A DNA stretch of 64,000 nucleotides from NCBI RefSeq assembly GCF_000963005.1, contig NZ_JZHZ01000007.1, positions 647,266 through 711,265 of the forward strand, given 5' to 3'. The notes under the pieces were generated by a model. The model saw only the letters and a program-made list of their open reading frames with translations. It ran no database searches and had not been told where the DNA came from. Both the position numbers and the translations under genes were made by a program. Each line of letters starts with the position of its first letter. Position 1 is the stretch's first letter. Below are positions 1-16,574 of this stretch, one piece after another. The stretch is from Xanthomonas sp. GPE 39. Its GTDB lineage: Bacteria > Pseudomonadota > Gammaproteobacteria > Xanthomonadales > Xanthomonadaceae.

Positions 1-130
1 GCTGGTGCCGCCGCCGCTGGTGCCGCCACCGCTGGTGCCGCCACCGCTGGTGCCGCCGCCGCTGGTGCCGCCGCCGCTGGTGCCGCCACCGCTGGTGCCG
101 CCACCGCTGGTACCGCCACCGCTGGTACCG
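1..130. repeat. 15-bp tandem repeat coding for a GGGTS linker
   Basis: Eight complete copies of a 15-bp unit, GCTGGTGCCGCCRCC with minor variants, run from base 1 to 120, and a ninth degenerates near 130. The array continues off the left edge. On the minus strand each unit reads Gly-Gly-Gly-Thr-Ser, so copy changes keep the frame and only alter linker length in the GH6 enzyme. Third-position differences (GCCGCC versus GCCACC, GGTACC in the last units) show the copies are not recently homogenised. Confidence 0.95.
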
Positions 131-1503
131 GTGATCGCCGGATAAGCGTTCTGGACCAGCATGACGAACTGGTTGTGGAACCATGCGCCAGAAATCGGAG
201 AATCGGGCAGTGCACCTGTCAACACGCCATCCGGTGTTGTGTATCCAGGGTCGCACATCTTGTCAAAGCCTTTGCCTTGATTGTTCGGAATGTACTTGCT
301 GGAGCCGTCCGAGACGCCGGGTTCTTTGATGAACGCATAAGCATCAATATGCGGTGCCGGTGCCGCAGTCGGAGGCATGCCGATGCCCGCTCCGCTTACA
401 TTGCACCAGTTACCACGGGCAGTACGCTTATCCACACGGCCGGAGTCGACATACGAGTTGATATCGCTTCCGCTGGCCGATGTCGGACGGCTGGCGCCAC
501 CCCAGCCGTTGCGGCTGGTGTCGATGACGAATCCAATATTGCTTGGCCAACCTGCGGAAACGAAGTTGTTATAAAGCTTTTGCACATAATCAGATTCGGT
601 GAAAATGGGGTTCCATTGGTAGAACTTGGACGATCTGATCGGCTGCCCACCGACATTCATACTGGAGTCTGGTAGGTTCGGCTCGCTGATTGGCGTCGCG
701 TTCGCCGTGTTGGTGGCAAATCCATCGAGACTGGCAATGCCTGCCGTGGTGTCTTGAAAAATTCGTGTGTACAGAGGGATGGTTTTGCTGAGGTTGTTGT
801 CCCAACCCAGCCAGCCGCTATGCCCGATATCGGCATAGTTGTATGTATTCGGAATCGCATGAAGCTTGTTGATGGCGTATTTGATGCCGGCTTCGTAAAT
901 GCCTGAGGAGTAGGCTTGACCGCAGGCCGGGGTATCCAAGTTGGTGACGAGGTTCGGGAGGCTGTCTGGTTCGACAATGTCGACGATACGCAGATCTTGG
1001 TATTTCGGATCTGCCAGGATCCCCGCGATTACATCGATGTATTCGCTTTTGTAACGAGTCAGTCCGTCTTGAGTCAAGGCGAGTTCGCCGTTAGAGGACA
1101 GTGCGTGGCAATCGCGTCCAGGCATGTCATAAATCACAAGCCCGATTGTAATCGGAGTTCCCGATTTCTTTTGCGCCAGGGCGGCATCCAGGTGATCTTT
1201 CAGGCCAAGCAGTCCCGCGTTTCTATCGCCGCCATAGATCGCGCCGATCGAGTCCAGCCAGACGAAGGTCGGGTAGGATTTGACCGTCTGCATTTTTGCG
1301 GCCAGCGCCGAGTCGTTGACCTTCGCAATCGACGAGTCGATATTCGTGGCGTAGTCTTTATTCAAATAATTGGTTGCGCCGACAAACGGATTGTCTACGT
1401 GAGATTGAGCATGGGCGGCCAGGCTGGAGAGCAGGCACACGCTCAGCAATGACGCAGTTGCTTTATATTTGGAGCCCTTGCGGGTCGGCTTTGTTGTTTT
1501 CAT
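1..1503 (-). CDS. cbsA: Secreted GH6 cellobiohydrolase (exoglucanase), C-terminus beyond window
   Basis: The frame opens at an ATG at 1503 and stays open to base 1, so the C-terminal part is missing. Residues 1-32 look like a Sec signal peptide (basic start, hydrophobic core, AHA before Gln33). The rest of the first ~455 residues matches glycoside hydrolase family 6: YDMPGRDCHALSSNGE and IVEPDSLPN contain the acidic residues typical of GH6 active sites, and WNPIFTESDYV and IDTSRNGWGG are further family motifs. From about residue 457 the protein becomes a Thr-Ser-Gly-Gly-Gly repeat linker, so a carbohydrate-binding or FnIII module probably follows outside the window. The role would be release of cellobiose from plant cell-wall cellulose after export by the type II system. 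It is less GC-rich than the housekeeping genes to its right. The gene symbol follows the Xanthomonas CbsA family and is less certain than the GH6 call. Confidence 0.88.
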   Translation of the reverse strand, partial: MKTTKPTRKGSKYKATASLLSVCLLSSLAAHAQSHVDNPFVGATNYLNKDYATNIDSSIAKVNDSALAAKMQTVKSYPTFVWLDSIGAIYGGDRNAGLLGLKDHLDAALAQKKSGTPITIGLVIYDMPGRDCHALSSNGELALTQDGLTRYKSEYIDVIAGILADPKYQDLRIVDIVEPDSLPNLVTNLDTPACGQAYSSGIYEAGIKYAINKLHAIPNTYNYADIGHSGWLGWDNNLSKTIPLYTRIFQDTTAGIASLDGFATNTANATPISEPNLPDSSMNVGGQPIRSSKFYQWNPIFTESDYVQKLYNNFVSAGWPSNIGFVIDTSRNGWGGASRPTSASGSDINSYVDSGRVDKRTARGNWCNVSGAGIGMPPTAAPAPHIDAYAFIKEPGVSDGSSKYIPNNQGKGFDKMCDPGYTTPDGVLTGALPDSPISGAWFHNQFVMLVQNAYPAITGTSGGGTSGGGTSGGGTSGGGTSGGGTSGGGTSGGGTSGGGTS

Positions 1504-2335
1504 GGTGGTCTCTCTATTTTGAGGTCTTATTAGGGTTGTTATTGATGCAAGCATGGTCGTGGCGCTTTGGCCGTTTCGATCACTTTGTGTGCTGCCCCCT
1601 GGCGATTAGTGTGTAGTGAAATGAAATTTTGGCGTAGCAGTCCCCGAAGCGCCGCCGATAAATAAATCGAGCGGCCCTGGTCATTGGGGGATGTGTTTAG
1701 TCGTTGCTGGAGAAACTATCTAAATGCGCTGGCAATCTGCTGCGATTCGTGCTGTTTTCTTTTGAAAAAATTGGATGGACCGCAGATGCGGGTAATTGCC
1801 AGAGGAACGGGTTGCTTCCAAAATATTTTCGAGATGGATTTCTCTTTGTGTCACCAATATGGTTTTGAGGCGCGGCATTAATGCGACGAGTGAACAAGAG
1901 AAGAGGATCTACATGTCACGCGGTCTTAATGCCTTGCTTGTTGGGAGCAGAAGATCAATTTCGAGATACAGCATTCTGTGAGCGTGCTCAAGAAATGAAT
2001 TAACCTTGAATACAAACTGATGAAGTGCTTATCGGTCGTCTAAAATAATGTGACGCCGCTTGCTGAACGAGTGGCTTAATATATGCTTACTAATGAAATC
2101 TTCACGCGGAATCTGGGGTCAATAACCCTTACCCACGTGTAAGTGCGCAAACGACCGGGCGTGAAAATACCTCTGCGGCGTCGCTGCCACGAAAAAATCA
2201 TGGTCCGCGCAGCCCCCGTTTGCGTCAGCGATCATCGGGTGGAGACGAACTGGATGTCAGCGGATTGCTTGCGCAGTGCAAGGTGTTTCAGGCGTCGTCT
2301 TGACCGGCTTGCTGCCGTGCCGAGTGTGCGGCAGG
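1504..2335. other. 832-bp AT-richer gap without a convincing gene
   Basis: No open frame here has a ribosome-binding site, a recognisable domain or GC-rich third positions; the frames are all under about 125 codons. The stretch from about 1620 to 2140 is clearly richer in A+T than its surroundings. The right end (about 2160-2335) returns to normal composition. The promoter of the GH6 gene must lie in the left part, but no clear sigma-70 pair stands out. I see no insertion-sequence ends. It may be decayed or foreign DNA. Confidence 0.6.
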
Positions 2336-4045
2336 TCACGTGGCGCTGCGCCACCCATGCTCACGTGCCAGCGCGCACAGGAGCGCGGCGAAATCTGCGG
2401 CAAAGCCTTGCATGTCGAACAGGCCGCTCGTTTCCCGGCGTTGTCGCAGCCGTTCTTGCAGCGCGTGCAGCGCACTCTGGTCGCGTCCGAGGCGCACCGC
2501 CATGGCGATGAAGGCGTCATCGTCGACCACGTTCATGTCATCCATGCCCAGATGGTGGTTGAGGCTGCCGGCCACGCGCGCGGCGAACGTGGTGCCGGGG
2601 CAGGTGAGGACCGGGCAGCCAGCCCACAGTGCATCGGAGGCGGTGGTGTGCGCGTTGTAAGAATGCGTATCTAAAAACAGGTCGGCATGCCGATAGCGGG
2701 AGAGATACTCCGGGTGCGCCAGTTTCGGCATGAAGCGCAGGCGCGCCGGGTCCAGGTCGGCTTGATGGGCGGTTTGGCGCAGCCGCGCATCCGCTTGGCC
2801 GGGACCGGACAGCAGCCAGAGGACGCTGTCCGGCACTTGGCGCAGCACCGCCAGCATTCGCGCCATGCTGCGTGGACTCAATTTGTAGCTGTTGTTGAAG
2901 CAGCAAAACACGGTGCCCGTTTCGGGCAGGCCGCAGTCGTGCCGCGTCGGTGGGATGCCGACGTGGCGGGTGGTGTCGGAGGGCTGGAATGCACGTGGTA
3001 GCCGCAGGACCCGCTCGCTGTAATGTGCAGTGAGAGCCGGTGGCAGGGCGTAGTCATCGCCGATGACATAGTCCATCCATGGCGCGCCAGACGTGCCAGG
3101 GTAGGCGAGCCAGTTGATCTGCACGGGTGCCGGACGCAGCGCCAGCACTTCGGGCGTGCCGCCGCCGCCCCAGCCACGCAGATCCAGCAGCATGTCGATG
3201 CCGGCCTCGCGGATGCGTTGGGCGATGGTGCGATGCGCTTGCGCGGTCACGCTGTGCCAGGTGTGCGCCGCCGCTTGCAGGCGGGCGTGGATCGCACTGC
3301 GGTCGTCACCGTTCAGTGCGAACAGGTGTACCTGCATGTCCGCATGCGCACGCAGGTGTTCGAACAGGGCGACGGTCAGCAAGCCGGTGGGATGGGCGCC
3401 GAACCCGTTGGACAGAAAGCCGATCCGTAGCGGGCCGTGCTGGCGGACCGTGGTTGCCGGCAGTGGGGTCAGTGTGGCTGCCAGCGCCTCGGCACGGTTG
3501 CGCGCGCAGCGCAGTTGCTCGGCCGGAGCGGCGTCCTCGTTGAGGAAGGCGAACGGTTCGATCGCGGGATGTCCACGGCGCACCGCGGTACGGACCTGCT
3601 GCGACAGCGCGTCGAGATCGCGCCAGTCGCACAGTTTGCGTCGCCAGTTGAGCAGGTGCGCGACAATCGATGGTTCCTGCGGCAGCAGGGCATACGCATG
3701 CGCGTAGGCATCTGCGGCGGCTTCCGCTTCGCCGTTGTCCTCCAGGGCGTGGCCCAGCCATAGGGCGATGCCGGGATGTTGCGGGGCTTGCTGCAATGCG
3801 TGGCGCAAGCTGTGCGCGGCGTCGGCATGGCGGCCCTGGGTCCATCGCACCCGGCCCAGCCGCGCCAGCGCTTCGGGGTGGCCTGGACGCAGTTGCAGCG
3901 CGCGCAGCGCGGCATGTTCGCCAGCGGTGATGGCGCCAGCGCCGAGTTCGGCATCGGCCAGCATCACCCAGGCAAGGAAATCTTGTGGGTTGCGTCGTAC
4001 CGTCTCGCGCAGGTGGCGCAGTTCGTCGGCGTCGTCGCCGCTCAT
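2336..4045 (-). CDS. TPR-containing O-GlcNAc transferase homologue (GT41)
   Basis: A 569-aa protein with TPR-type helical repeats over roughly residues 5-130 and a GT41/SPINDLY catalytic region from about 200 to the end. His218 in FGAHPTG and Lys388 in CFNNSYKLS fall at exactly the numbers reported for the Xanthomonas campestris OGT (XcOGT, about 568 aa), which has been studied as a structural model of human OGT. The family transfers sugar from a UDP-sugar to protein Ser/Thr; the natural substrate in Xanthomonas is not established. Its start lies 22 bp after the prfA stop on the same strand, so it is probably the last gene of a hemA-prfA-OGT operon. In many gammaproteobacteria prmC occupies this place. 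No strong Shine-Dalgarno precedes the ATG, so translational coupling is possible. Confidence 0.92.
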   Translation of the reverse strand: MSGDDADELRHLRETVRRNPQDFLAWVMLADAELGAGAITAGEHAALRALQLRPGHPEALARLGRVRWTQGRHADAAHSLRHALQQAPQHPGIALWLGHALEDNGEAEAAADAYAHAYALLPQEPSIVAHLLNWRRKLCDWRDLDALSQQVRTAVRRGHPAIEPFAFLNEDAAPAEQLRCARNRAEALAATLTPLPATTVRQHGPLRIGFLSNGFGAHPTGLLTVALFEHLRAHADMQVHLFALNGDDRSAIHARLQAAAHTWHSVTAQAHRTIAQRIREAGIDMLLDLRGWGGGGTPEVLALRPAPVQINWLAYPGTSGAPWMDYVIGDDYALPPALTAHYSERVLRLPRAFQPSDTTRHVGIPPTRHDCGLPETGTVFCCFNNSYKLSPRSMARMLAVLRQVPDSVLWLLSGPGQADARLRQTAHQADLDPARLRFMPKLAHPEYLSRYRHADLFLDTHSYNAHTTASDALWAGCPVLTCPGTTFAARVAGSLNHHLGMDDMNVVDDDAFIAMAVRLGRDQSALHALQERLRQRRETSGLFDMQGFAADFAALLCALAREHGWRSAT

Positions 4046-12321: not shown

Positions 12322-13413
12322 ATGGGCATTAAGTGCGGCATCGTCGGGTTGCCCAATGTTGGCAAGTCGACTCTGTTCAATGCATTGACCAAGGCGGGCA
12401 TCGCTGCGGCCAATTTCCCGTTCTGCACCATCGAGCCCAACGTCGGCGTTGTGCCGGTGCCAGATCCGCGGCTTGGTGCGCTGGCGGCGATCATCAATCC
12501 GCAGAAGGTCGTTCCCACCGCGGTCGAATTCGTCGATATCGCTGGCTTGGTTGCCGGTGCCGCCAGTGGTGAGGGATTGGGCAACAAGTTCCTTGCGCAC
12601 ATCCGCGAAGTCGATGCGATTACCCACGTAGTGCGCTGTTTCGAGCATAGCGACATCATCCACGTCAACAACAAGGTCGATCCGGTTTCCGATATCGAGA
12701 CGATCGATATCGAATTGGCCCTGGCCGATTTGGATAGCGTGGAAAAAGCGCTCAACCGTGCCGAGCGCGCGGCCAAGGGCGGCGACAAGGACGCTGCCGC
12801 GCGCAAGCCGGTGCTTGCCAAGTTGCAAGCTGCGCTGGCCGACGGCAAGCCTGGGCGTAGCGCGGGGCTGGATGAAGAAGAAAAAGCGTTGGTGCGCGAT
12901 TTGTTTTTGCTCACGCTCAAGCCGGTGATGTACATCGCTAACGTGTTGGAGGATGGCTTCGAGAACAATCCGCACCTGGAGGCAGTGCGCGCGCGCGCCG
13001 CGACCGAGGGTGCCGAAGTGGTGCCGGTATCGGCGGCGATCGAGGAAGAGTTGTCGCAACTGGATGATGCCGATCGCGACGCGTTTCTGGTCGATCTGGG
13101 CTTGCAGGAGCCGGGGCTGAACCGGGTGATTCGCGCCGCCTATGCGCTGCTGGGTCTGCAGACGTATTTCACCGCCGGGGTGAAGGAAGTGCGGGCATGG
13201 ACAGTGAAGGTGGGGGCGACCGCGCCGCAGGCGGCAGCGGTGATCCATACCGATTTTGAGAAAGGCTTCATCCGTGCCGAGACCATCGCCTACGACGATT
13301 TCATCAAGTACAAGGGTGAGAGCGGCGCGCGCGAGGCCGGACGTTTGCGCCTGGAAGGCAAGGAGTACCGCGTGCAGGAAGGCGATATCCTGCATTTCCG
13401 CTTCAACGTCTGA
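12322..13413 (+). CDS. ychF: Redox-regulated ATPase/GTPase YchF (EngD)
   Basis: A 363-aa Obg-family P-loop ATPase. Walker A is [15 protein letters not shown] at residues 8-22, the switch II DxxG is EFVDIAGLV, and the C-terminal TGS domain ends with [16 protein letters not shown]. YchF preferentially hydrolyses ATP, binds ribosomes and is tied to the oxidative stress response. Full length, following pth as in E. coli. Confidence 0.97.
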
Positions 13414-13495
13414 TCCGATCCGAAGCTGTTGCGCGTGCTTTGCGCAAGCGCACACGGACAATTGCGCTGCCATGTCTGCCCGCGTCAAAAGGCTG

Positions 13496-13524
13496 TTGAC
13501 AAGGCAATGGTGTCAAGGAAGAAT
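13496..13524 (+). promoter_or_regulatory. Candidate sigma-70 promoter for tRNA-tuf transcription unit
   Basis: A perfect -35 TTGACA at 13496-13501 is separated by 17 bp from AAGAAT at 13519-13524 (4 of 6 matches to TATAAT). It lies about 60 bp upstream of tRNA-Tyr, the first of three tRNAs before tuf. No other pair of comparable quality is seen in the ychF-tRNA gap. Confidence 0.5.
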
Positions 13525-13582
13525 AGCGGGCTGTTTCACCCCTCTTTGATTCGGTTTCGCGACCGGGTTGGGGCGGGTAGTT

Positions 13583-13668
13583 GGAGGGATACCCAAGCGG
13601 CCAACGGGGGCAGACTGTAAATCTGCTGGCTTACGCCTTCGGTGGTTCGAATCCACCTCCCTCCACCA
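13583..13668 (+). tRNA. tRNA-Tyr (GUA)
   Basis: A class II tRNA with acceptor GGAGGGA/TCCCTCC and anticodon loop centred on GTA (GCAGA-CTGTAAA-TCTGC). It has an extra long variable arm (TGGCTTACGCCTTC region) and T arm GGTGG-TTCGAAT-CCACC. Discriminator A is at 13665 and CCA is encoded at 13666-13668. It is the first gene of the tRNA-tuf cluster. Confidence 0.96.
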
Positions 13669-13700
13669 GTAATTTTGTTGTGGCAGTGTGTCATCCCGTA

Positions 13701-13774
13701 GCGGGAGTAGTTCAACGGTAGAACCTCAGCCTTCCAAGCTGATGGTGCGGGTTCGATTCCCGTCTCCCGCTCCA
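13701..13774 (+). tRNA. tRNA-Gly (UCC)
   Basis: Acceptor arms GCGGGAG/CTCCCGC, anticodon stem TCAGC/GCTGA with loop CTTCCAA (anticodon TCC), and T arm GCGGG-TTCGATT-CCCGT. CCA is encoded at 13772-13774. It reads AGG-poor/GGA-type glycine codons and lies between tRNA-Tyr and tRNA-Thr. Confidence 0.95.
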
Positions 13775-13804
13775 TTGAACGCGCGTGTGTCACAATAAAG
13801 CAAC

Positions 13805-13880
13805 GCTCACGTAGCTCAGTCGGTAGAGCACCTCCTTGGTAAGGAGGAGGTCGAAGGTTCGATTCCTTTCGTGAGCACCA
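13805..13880 (+). tRNA. tRNA-Thr (GGU)
   Basis: Acceptor arms GCTCACG at 13805-13811 and CGTGAGC at 13870-13876. The anticodon stem is CCTCC/GGAGG with loop TTGGTAA (anticodon GGT), and the T arm contains TTCGATT. CCA is encoded at 13878-13880. Only 45 bp separate it from tuf, as in the tyrU-glyT-thrT-tufB cluster of E. coli. Confidence 0.96.
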
Positions 13881-13925
13881 TATTCAGTCGTCAAATCTTT
13901 CTAAGATCATCGAGAAGAAGCAGCC

Positions 13926-15116
13926 ATGGCCAAGGGTAAGTTCGAGCGCACCAAGCCGCACGTCAACGTCGGCACCATCGGTCACGTCGACCACGGCAAG
14001 ACCACGCTGACGGCAGCACTGACCAAGGTCGGCGCGGAGCGCTTCGGCGGCGAATTCAAAGCCTACGACGCGATCGACGCGGCGCCGGAAGAGAAGGCGC
14101 GCGGTATCACGATCTCGACCGCCCACGTGGAATACGAATCCCCGACGCGTCACTACGCGCACGTGGATTGCCCGGGGCACGCGGACTACGTGAAGAACAT
14201 GATCACCGGTGCGGCGCAGATGGACGGCGCGATCCTGGTGTGCTCGGCCGCTGACGGCCCGATGCCGCAGACCCGCGAGCACATCCTGCTGTCGCGTCAG
14301 GTCGGCGTGCCGCACATCGTGGTGTTCTTGAACAAGGCCGACATGGTCGACGACGCCGAGCTGCTTGAGCTGGTCGAGATGGAAGTGCGCGAGCTGCTGA
14401 GTAAGTACGACTTCCCGGGCGACGACACCCCGATCATCCATGGTTCGGCGCGTCTGGCGCTGGAAGGTGATCAGAGCGAGATCGGCGTGCCGGCGATCCT
14501 GAAGCTGGTGGAAGCGCTGGACACGTTCATCCCGGAGCCGCAGCGCGACGTGGACAAGCCGTTCCTGATGCCGGTGGAAGACGTGTTCTCGATTTCCGGT
14601 CGCGGCACGGTGGTGACCGGTCGTATCGAGCGCGGCATCATCAAGGTGGGCGACGAAATCGAAATCGTCGGCATCCGTGCGACGCAGAAGACCACGGTGA
14701 CGGGCGTGGAAATGTTCCGCAAGCTGCTGGACCAGGGTCAGGCTGGCGATAACGCGGGTCTGCTGCTGCGCGGCACCAAGCGTGACGACGTGGAGCGCGG
14801 CCAGGTGCTGTGCAAGCCGGGTTCGATCAAGCCGCACACCGAGTTCGAGGCCGAGGTGTACGTGTTGTCGAAGGACGAGGGTGGTCGTCACACGCCGTTC
14901 TTCAAGGGCTACCGTCCGCAGTTCTATTTTCGCACCACCGACATCACTGGCGCGTGCCAGTTGCCGGAAGGCGTGGAGATGGTGATGCCGGGCGACAACA
15001 TCAAGATGGTGGTGACGCTGATCAACCCGGTGGCGATGGACGAAGGCCTGCGTTTCGCGATCCGCGAAGGCGGCCGGACCGTCGGCGCCGGCGTGGTGGC
15101 CAAGATCATCAAGTAA
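13926..15116 (+). CDS. tuf: Elongation factor Tu
   Basis: A 396-aa GTPase that delivers aminoacyl-tRNA to the ribosome. G1 is [11 protein letters not shown]3 is [13 protein letters not shown]4 is NKADMVDD, and domains 2 and 3 are complete to KIIK. Its left context (Tyr-Gly-Thr tRNAs) is that of tufB, while its right context (rpsJ) is that of tufA. Only one tuf is present and the genes expected between the two copies are absent. See the finding on this junction. Confidence 0.99.
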
Positions 15117-15124
15117 TGCACTCT

Positions 15125-15208
15125 GGCAGCCTTGGCTGCCGGATGTAGTGGATAGGCGGCGACTTGGGTCGCCGCGAAGGCGAAGGGTCGGCGAAAGTCG
15201 GCCCTTCG
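15125..15208 (+). terminator. Three successive stem-loops after tuf
   Basis: GGCAGCC-TT-GGCTGCC at 15125-15140, GCGGCGAC-TTGG-GTCGCCGC at 15156-15175, and CGAAGGG at 15181-15187 pairing with CCCTTCG at 15202-15208. All are perfect in the arms named. None is followed by a clear U-tract, so they could be Rho-independent terminators of poor type, mRNA-stabilising structures or processing sites at the 3' end of the tuf transcript. Confidence 0.5.
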
Positions 15209-15259
15209 TCGTTCATGGTCACGGCATAGGCCGGTCTGCATATTTCTTGCCGCAGAGTG

Positions 15260-15288
15260 TTGCGAACAGCTCAAGCGCCCCTTATAAT
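15260..15288 (+). promoter_or_regulatory. Candidate distal promoter upstream of rpsJ
   Basis: TTGCGA at 15260-15265 and a perfect TATAAT at 15283-15288 are spaced by 17 bp, about 310 bp before rpsJ. It would give a long leader to the S10 operon or serve a gene that used to stand here. Confidence 0.55.
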
Positions 15289-15409
15289 GCGCGGCTCGGC
15301 GTTCCTGGGTAGGGCGCCGGCAAGACAGCGAAAAGAGGGGCAGGAAGTCGCTCGTGTTCGCAAGACCGGGAAGGTCGCGTTGTGTGGAGAACTCAATAAC
15401 CTTGTGTTA

Positions 15410-15438
15410 TTGACGCCGCTCTATCTGCGCATTATACT
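15410..15438 (+). promoter_or_regulatory. S10 operon promoter (sigma-70)
   Basis: TTGACG at 15410-15415, a 17-bp spacer and TATACT at 15433-15438 form a near-consensus promoter. Transcription would start around 15445, leaving a leader of about 155 nt before rpsJ. In E. coli L4 regulates the S10 operon through its leader; whether that applies here is not shown by the sequence. The 15117-15600 gap otherwise holds only the second promoter and three stem-loops listed separately. Confidence 0.7.
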
Positions 15439-15600
15439 TTTCCGTCTAGGCAGGCCGGGTCGACTGGTCTGCCTCAGTTTTTGGGGTGTAGGAATGCCCT
15501 CGCCGAGTCGGAACGCTTGGCGCATATGACATCAGGACATCACCGGGGCAGGTATCCCAGAGGCCTTGCCCGTCGCTCTTTTAACGAAGGAACCACCGTT

Positions 15601-15912
15601 ATGGCGGACCAAAAGATCCGGATTCGGTTGAAGGCGTTCGATAGTCGTTTGATCGACCGTTCAGCCAGCGAGATCGTTGAGACGGCCAAGCGGACCGGCG
15701 CGCAAGTGCGTGGCCCGATCCCGTTGCCGACCAAGATCGAACGCTACACCATTCTCGTTTCTCCGCACGTCGATAAAGACGCGCGCGACCAGTACGAGAC
15801 CCGCACGCACAAGCGCGTGCTCGACATCGTCGACCCCAACGACAAGACCGTGGACGCGCTGATGAAGCTAGAACTCGCGGCTGGCGTCGATGTCCAGATC
15901 AAGTTGACCTGA
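15601..15912 (+). CDS. rpsJ: 30S ribosomal protein S10
   Basis: A 103-aa protein ([17 protein letters not shown]), full length. S10 is part of the 30S head and, as NusE, of the transcription antitermination complex. It is the first gene of the S10 operon. ACGAAGGA stands 10-15 bp before the ATG, and longer in-frame openings upstream of 15601 have no conserved sequence. Confidence 0.99.
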
Positions 15913-15923
15913 GGACTGCGACC

Positions 15924-16574
15924 ATGACGAAGAAATATTCGTTGGGCTTCGTGGGCCGTAAGGCCGGTATGAGCCGCGTCTTCACTGAAGACGGCCGCTC
16001 CATTCCGGTGACCCTGATCGAAGCGACCCCGAACCGTATCACCCAGCTCAAGACGGTTGAGAGCGACGGCTACAGCGCTGTGCAGATCACCGTGGGTGCC
16101 CGTCGCGCCGCGTTGGTCAACAAGCCGGCGGCTGGCCACTTCGCCAAGGCGAAGGTGGAAGCGGGGCGTGGCCTGTGGGAGTTCCGCGTCGAAGATGCGC
16201 AGCTGGGCGACTTTGCCATCGGCGGCGAGATCAAGGCGGACATCTTTGAAGTCGGCCAGAAGGTCGACGTCCAGGGCGTCACCAAGGGCAAGGGCTTCCA
16301 AGGCACCATCAAGCGGCACAACTTCCGCATGGGCGACGCCACCCACGGTAACTCGCTGTCGCATCGCGCGCCGGGTTCGCTGGGTCAGCGCCAGACCCCG
16401 GGTCGCGTTTTCCCGGGCAAGAAGATGTCCGGCCACATGGGCGCGGTGCAGCAGAGCACGCAGAATCTGGAAGTGGTCAAGGTTGACGTCGAGCGTGGCT
16501 TGATCGCCATTCGCGGCGCGGTGCCTGGCGCTGCCGGTGGCGACGTGATCGTGCGTCCGGCTAGCAAGGCATAA
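15924..16574 (+). CDS. rplC: 50S ribosomal protein L3
   Basis: A 216-aa protein starting [20 protein letters not shown]. The L3 signature [13 protein letters not shown] and the [15 protein letters not shown] region that reaches the peptidyl-transferase centre are present. It is among the proteins that nucleate 50S assembly. It begins 11 bp after rpsJ within the S10 operon, preceded by GAGGA. Confidence 0.99.

Follow-up and report, generated by a model that had tools for sequence, protein, structure and literature searches.

Direct repeats that are longer than both the reads and the k-mer collapse in k-mer graphs: the sequences flanking the repeat are joined to each other, and the intervening sequence is left as a loop contig with overlapping ends. 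Near-identical tuf genes on one chromosome can also recombine, as in the tuf gene conversion and the tuf-mediated inversions of Salmonella (PMC5485169, in excerpt). A locus in the draft genome of Xanthomonas sp. GPE 39, at which a single tuf gene connects a tRNA cluster directly to rpsJ, has features of both systems. As in the collapse of repeats by short-read assemblers, the flanks are joined across one tuf copy and a loop piece with overlapping ends exists; unlike in a plain collapse, guided scaffolding appears to have set this loop into a nearby wrong gap, which makes the block look relocated and not absent. Two near-identical tuf genes on one chromosome are shared with Salmonella, but in contrast to the inversions described in the excerpted source, the tuf genes are same-strand direct repeats in 16 unbroken same-genus relatives, and no biological rearrangement is needed. 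We attribute the join, with a probability of roughly 0.97, to misassembly by repeat collapse, followed by misplacement of the loop in scaffolding, and see no unusual biology in it. The titles and abstract openings listed in searches of the literature on tuf misassembly and on tufA and tufB in Xanthomonas or Xylella describe no such join.

The window, the whole stretch of 64,000 bases that was analysed, is C1:647266-711265 of the GPE 39 assembly (G000; 8 contigs, 3,534,477 bases in total, C1 3,517,237 bases). ARAGORN places tRNA-Tyr(gta) at 13583..13668, tRNA-Gly(tcc) at 13701..13774, and tRNA-Thr(ggt) at 13805..13880, all on the plus strand and together forming the left flank of tufB. The tuf reading frame (13926..15116, plus strand; 396 amino acids as printed) follows, and then come rpsJ, which encodes S10 (15601..15912, plus strand; 103 amino acids from the MADQ start) and is the right flank of tufA, and rplC (15924-16574) to its right. 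The order given in the earlier note, with tRNA-Tyr, -Gly, and -Thr, one tuf, and rpsJ, is thus borne out by both the tRNA predictions and the reading frames. The window holds no N across its full 64 kb, the tRNA-tuf-rpsJ join included, and the lack of a gap across the join is a point against collapse.

The published draft of GPE 39 (named 'X. pseudalbilineans') has eight scaffolds, the largest of 3,511,121 bases, and a total of 3,528,360 bases without gaps (PMC4584326, in excerpt). C1 and the total of the deposited assembly exceed these gap-free sizes by 6,116 and 6,117 bases, corresponding to about 61 gaps of 100, of which the two beside the displaced block described below were seen directly. 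According to the same excerpt, 76-bp paired reads were assembled with Velvet and SOAPdenovo, and the last scaffolding step was guided by X. albilineans GPE PC73 (PMC4584326). For GPE 39, k-mers of 25 to 73 are given in an excerpt of a second paper (PMC3849588). The insert size differs between these excerpts, being 200 bp in one (PMC4584326) and 300-500 bp in the other (PMC3849588); pairs of 300-500 bp could bridge an identical stretch of 213 bases, though not one of 524.

The gene order in relatives was examined by using window positions 12322-16574 as a query against 41 genomes, the window's own among them, all of which matched, with the best matches listed. The set comprises 19 same-genus genomes and another 21 more distant ones, and distances were obtained by subtracting match coordinates. 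In 16 same-genus genomes (G001, G003-G015, G017, G018) the tRNA-tuf and tuf-rpsJ parts share a contig and a strand, with a distance of about 16.1-16.25 kb. In the other three (G002, G016, G019) the matches break off within tuf where a contig starts or ends, the lengths of the contigs being known for G002 alone. The order of the window, tRNA-tuf-rpsJ, occurs in none of the 19, and a single-tuf order as the ancestral state, which had been named as a possible refutation, is not what these relatives have. In the single-contig genome G008 (L111, L112) the full order is ychF, tRNA-Tyr/Gly/Thr, tuf, tRNA-Trp, secE, nusG, rplK, rplA, rplL, rpoB, rpoC, rpsL, rpsG, fusA, tuf, rpsJ, and rplC. The order that the earlier note gives as canonical for Xanthomonas is consistent with the 16 unbroken genomes and matches G008 gene by gene.

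Some relatives differ in other respects. The ychF gene of G001 (C1:19461-20552) lies far from the tRNA-tuf part (3191145-3192790), unlike in the other 15 unbroken genomes, reflecting either a rearrangement between ychF and the tRNA genes or an assembly matter. In Stenotrophomonas maltophilia NEC1 (L016:11089-17217), ychF and tuf are separated by about 6 kb vs. about 0.5 kb in G008, possibly by an insertion at the tRNA genes. G034, from another family of the same order, has rpsL-rpsG-fusA-tuf at C1:200500-220400 (L121) with an rpsJ/rplC match just after it, and a second cluster, tRNA-tuf-tRNA-Trp-secE-nusG-rplK-A-L-rpoB-rpoC, at C1:279000-298500 (L122), apart from its str cluster. Both lie on one contig about 60 kb apart, the stretches read being free of N, and in this genome the separation of rpoBC from str is apparently real.

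The genes expected between the two tuf copies are present in GPE 39. All cluster members tested were found in the genome (tuf, secE, nusG, rplK, rplA, rplL, rpoB, rpoC, rpsL, rpsG, fusA, rpsJ, and rplC), and the second tuf, rpoB, secE, and fusA, for which the earlier note had proposed a search, all lie in C1:629632-647165. This block, described in that note as missing, is an uninterrupted piece of 17,534 bases directly to the left of the window, as read in C1:610000-648500. It contains, in order, tuf, tRNA-Trp, secE, nusG, rplK, rplA, rplL, rpoB (domain at C1:635250), rpoC, rpsL, rpsG, fusA, and a partial tuf. The leading tuf runs from the third codon to the stop, its first two codons being absent, and its match (C1:629632-630844) includes bases beyond the stop codon; at the right end, after fusA, another tuf is represented by its first 78 bases (match at C1:647086-647165). 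Runs of exactly 100 N border the block on both sides, the right-hand one stopping at the window start, and consequently there is no sequenced junction at its scaffold site. The first 72 bases of the block are identical to its last 72, all within tuf: it starts at the base matching window position 13932, one past a difference at 13931 and where tuf identity sets in, and its last base corresponds to 14003. A k-mer of 73, the upper value published, gives overlaps of 72 (73-1), which matches this end overlap. Across the genome searches, only tRNA-Thr and fusA were found upstream of tuf and only tRNA-Trp and rpsJ downstream; with just these two upstream and two downstream flanks, a block that is chromosomal and has tuf at its borders has to lie between them.

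As deposited, the block sits inside a cellobiohydrolase gene and splits it at its repeat linker. The window opens on the catalytic side of this gene (1..1554, minus strand), cut at the window start in a Gly/Thr/Ser linker repeat. We take the enzyme to be cbhA-like, presumably with GH6 and CBM2 modules. Left of the first N run lie the linker repeat and the binding domain, and right of the second the same repeat resumes at the window start and leads into the catalytic part. This site was compared in four relatives (G002, G008, G003, and G017), of which G002 is the nearest, judged from neighbouring proteins. In G002 one open frame of 706 codons makes up the whole gene, with catalytic part, linker, and binding part in this order, the same neighbours, and no N. 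The neighbours adjoin with no block between them in G008, G003, and G017; the catalytic part is present at this site in G017 and was not detected there in G008 and G003. In these drafts, genes for such enzymes are broken up over different contigs by their linker repeats (PMC4584326, in excerpt). Judged from these comparisons of sequence, the scaffold position of the block is not credible. A TPR protein encoded nearby (2336-4045, minus strand), beside prfA and hemA, occurs in the same four relatives as well. It presumably resembles glycosyltransferases of the O-GlcNAc-transferase/SPINDLY type.

A comparison of the two tuf copies indicates where the false join may lie. At their starts, the tuf of the window and the tuf on the fusA side differ once in 80 comparable bases, at 13931, where the tRNA-side copy has C and the fusA-side copy has A. 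The tuf of the window and that leading the block are identical over 13932..14144 (213 bases), 14277-14800 (524 bases), and 14853-15070 (217 bases), stretches that all exceed the 76-bp reads reported; nine sites in the coding region separate the two beyond 14144. With these nine differences in the body of tuf the repeat is imperfect and the switch point is not fixed, but the join most likely falls within the 213 identical bases of 13932..14144 (plus strand). The second codon is GCC in tufB and GCA in tufA in all six relatives compared (of the 16 unbroken genomes), the fusA-side tuf fragment of G002, which has GCC, being an exception to this marker. The tuf of the window would accordingly be a chimera, with the start of tufB (tRNA side, GCC as codon 2) and the end of tufA (rpsJ side), as expected from a false path through the repeat. 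The base of the block tuf at eight of the nine differing sites is absent from the 12 relative copies read in these six genomes, and that at the ninth, 15071, is shared by three of the 12. This fits a block tuf whose body is one undivided copy, although the allele pattern cannot prove the phase because tuf copies convert. At window position 14145 the block tuf has T in place of A in the first position of codon 74, a change from Thr to Ser, so that this genome would encode two non-identical EF-Tu proteins.

The preferred reading can be reconstructed as follows. A short-read k-mer assembler would have met two tuf copies that share 213 identical bases from codon 3 onward and longer identical stretches further in, and would have gone from the tRNA side by the shorter route, via tuf, into rpsJ. 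The intervening 17.5 kb would have remained as a loop contig with ends overlapping by 72 bases, which reference-guided scaffolding may then have dropped, between 100-N gaps, into the nearby gap in the cellobiohydrolase linker. If the order in the reference is canonical, the contig carrying the cellobiohydrolase gene, the tRNAs, tuf, and the S10 operon would span both sides of the block; if the longer right-hand part decided where this contig was ranked, the contig of the block would come just before it, i.e., in the linker gap. The true order most likely is tRNA-Tyr/Gly/Thr-tufB-tRNA-Trp-secE-nusG-rplK-rplA-(rplJ, putative)-rplL-rpoB-rpoC-rpsL-rpsG-fusA-tufA-rpsJ. The overlap of 72 bases, the 100-N borders, the split gene, and the order in relatives together support the assembly collapse that had been offered as one of two options.

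The other option was a real tuf-tuf recombination that would serve as a lineage marker. In such an event a hybrid tuf would have stayed behind, flanked by the tRNAs and rpsJ, and the block, with a tuf of its own, would have been inserted about 14 kb upstream in the cellobiohydrolase linker. The deposited scaffold does read in this order, and the Salmonella cases show that tuf copies do recombine. The borders of the block, however, are 100-N gaps, so that no sequenced link ties it to any other place, and both of its ends fall within the same 72 bases of tuf. The insertion would moreover disrupt a gene that G002 has intact and whose neighbours are together in G008, G003, and G017, and it would have produced an order found in 0 of 19 same-genus genomes. 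On these grounds we regard a real recombination as very improbable, and the option as unsupported. Much the same low probability applies to the broader proposal that the direct-repeat tuf genes recombined in this strain, leaving the hybrid tuf by rpsJ, and that the block re-entered elsewhere or partly persists as a circle. That the block is an extrachromosomal circle cut out from between the tuf genes, with one hybrid tuf kept on the chromosome, seems to us extremely improbable. Its overlapping ends could close the piece, but the same overlap is expected of a loop in an assembly graph, and the published k-mer method explains its length. A circle with rpoBC and fusA would be expected to disappear if it has no replication origin, and the absence of an origin is assumed here. 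A plasmid search with the junction returned 23 records, none with at least 80% query coverage, and among those listed only tuf or short tRNA-side matches.

Equally far-fetched is the view that the single-tuf order is ancestral in, or a lineage marker of, the Lysobacterales, although two further assemblies likewise read tRNA-tuf-rpsJ. The best 80 of 590 named loci encoding relatives of YchF included 13 with a ychF at least 80% identical. A complete tuf is reached in seven of these 13, followed by secE in six and by rpsJ in L021 alone; two others end inside tuf, and four have no tuf in the stretch covered. L021 belongs to Lysobacter chinensis TLK-CK17 (G041; L113, L114), in which the block is an orphan contig of 16,244 bases that opens with the start of the fusA-side tuf, has secE near its other end, and closes with 244 bases of N. 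The second assembly, G027, which is one of the 21 more distant genomes, from the same order and 94% complete, has ychF-tRNAs-tuf-rpsJ at C94:41500-46400 (L123) and one full tuf match. Searches of it found no rpoB domain, and the best fusA match is only 33% identical. The join in G027 probably reflects the same collapse, the loop contig of the block having been lost from the incomplete assembly.

The collapse reading makes this locus a caution and not a discovery: a pair of tuf genes about 17 kb apart readily misleads short-read assemblers in this group, and three assemblies (G000, G041, and G027) were seen to carry this join. As illustrated by G027, in which neither an rpoB domain nor a close fusA was found, completeness estimates, typing by rpoB or fusA, and comparisons of operon order can be misled. 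The order as printed parts tufB-secE-rpoBC-str from S10, a separation that we attribute to assembly; if it were true, one of the most conserved operon clusters of bacteria, as characterized in an excerpt of PMC8046335, would be split.
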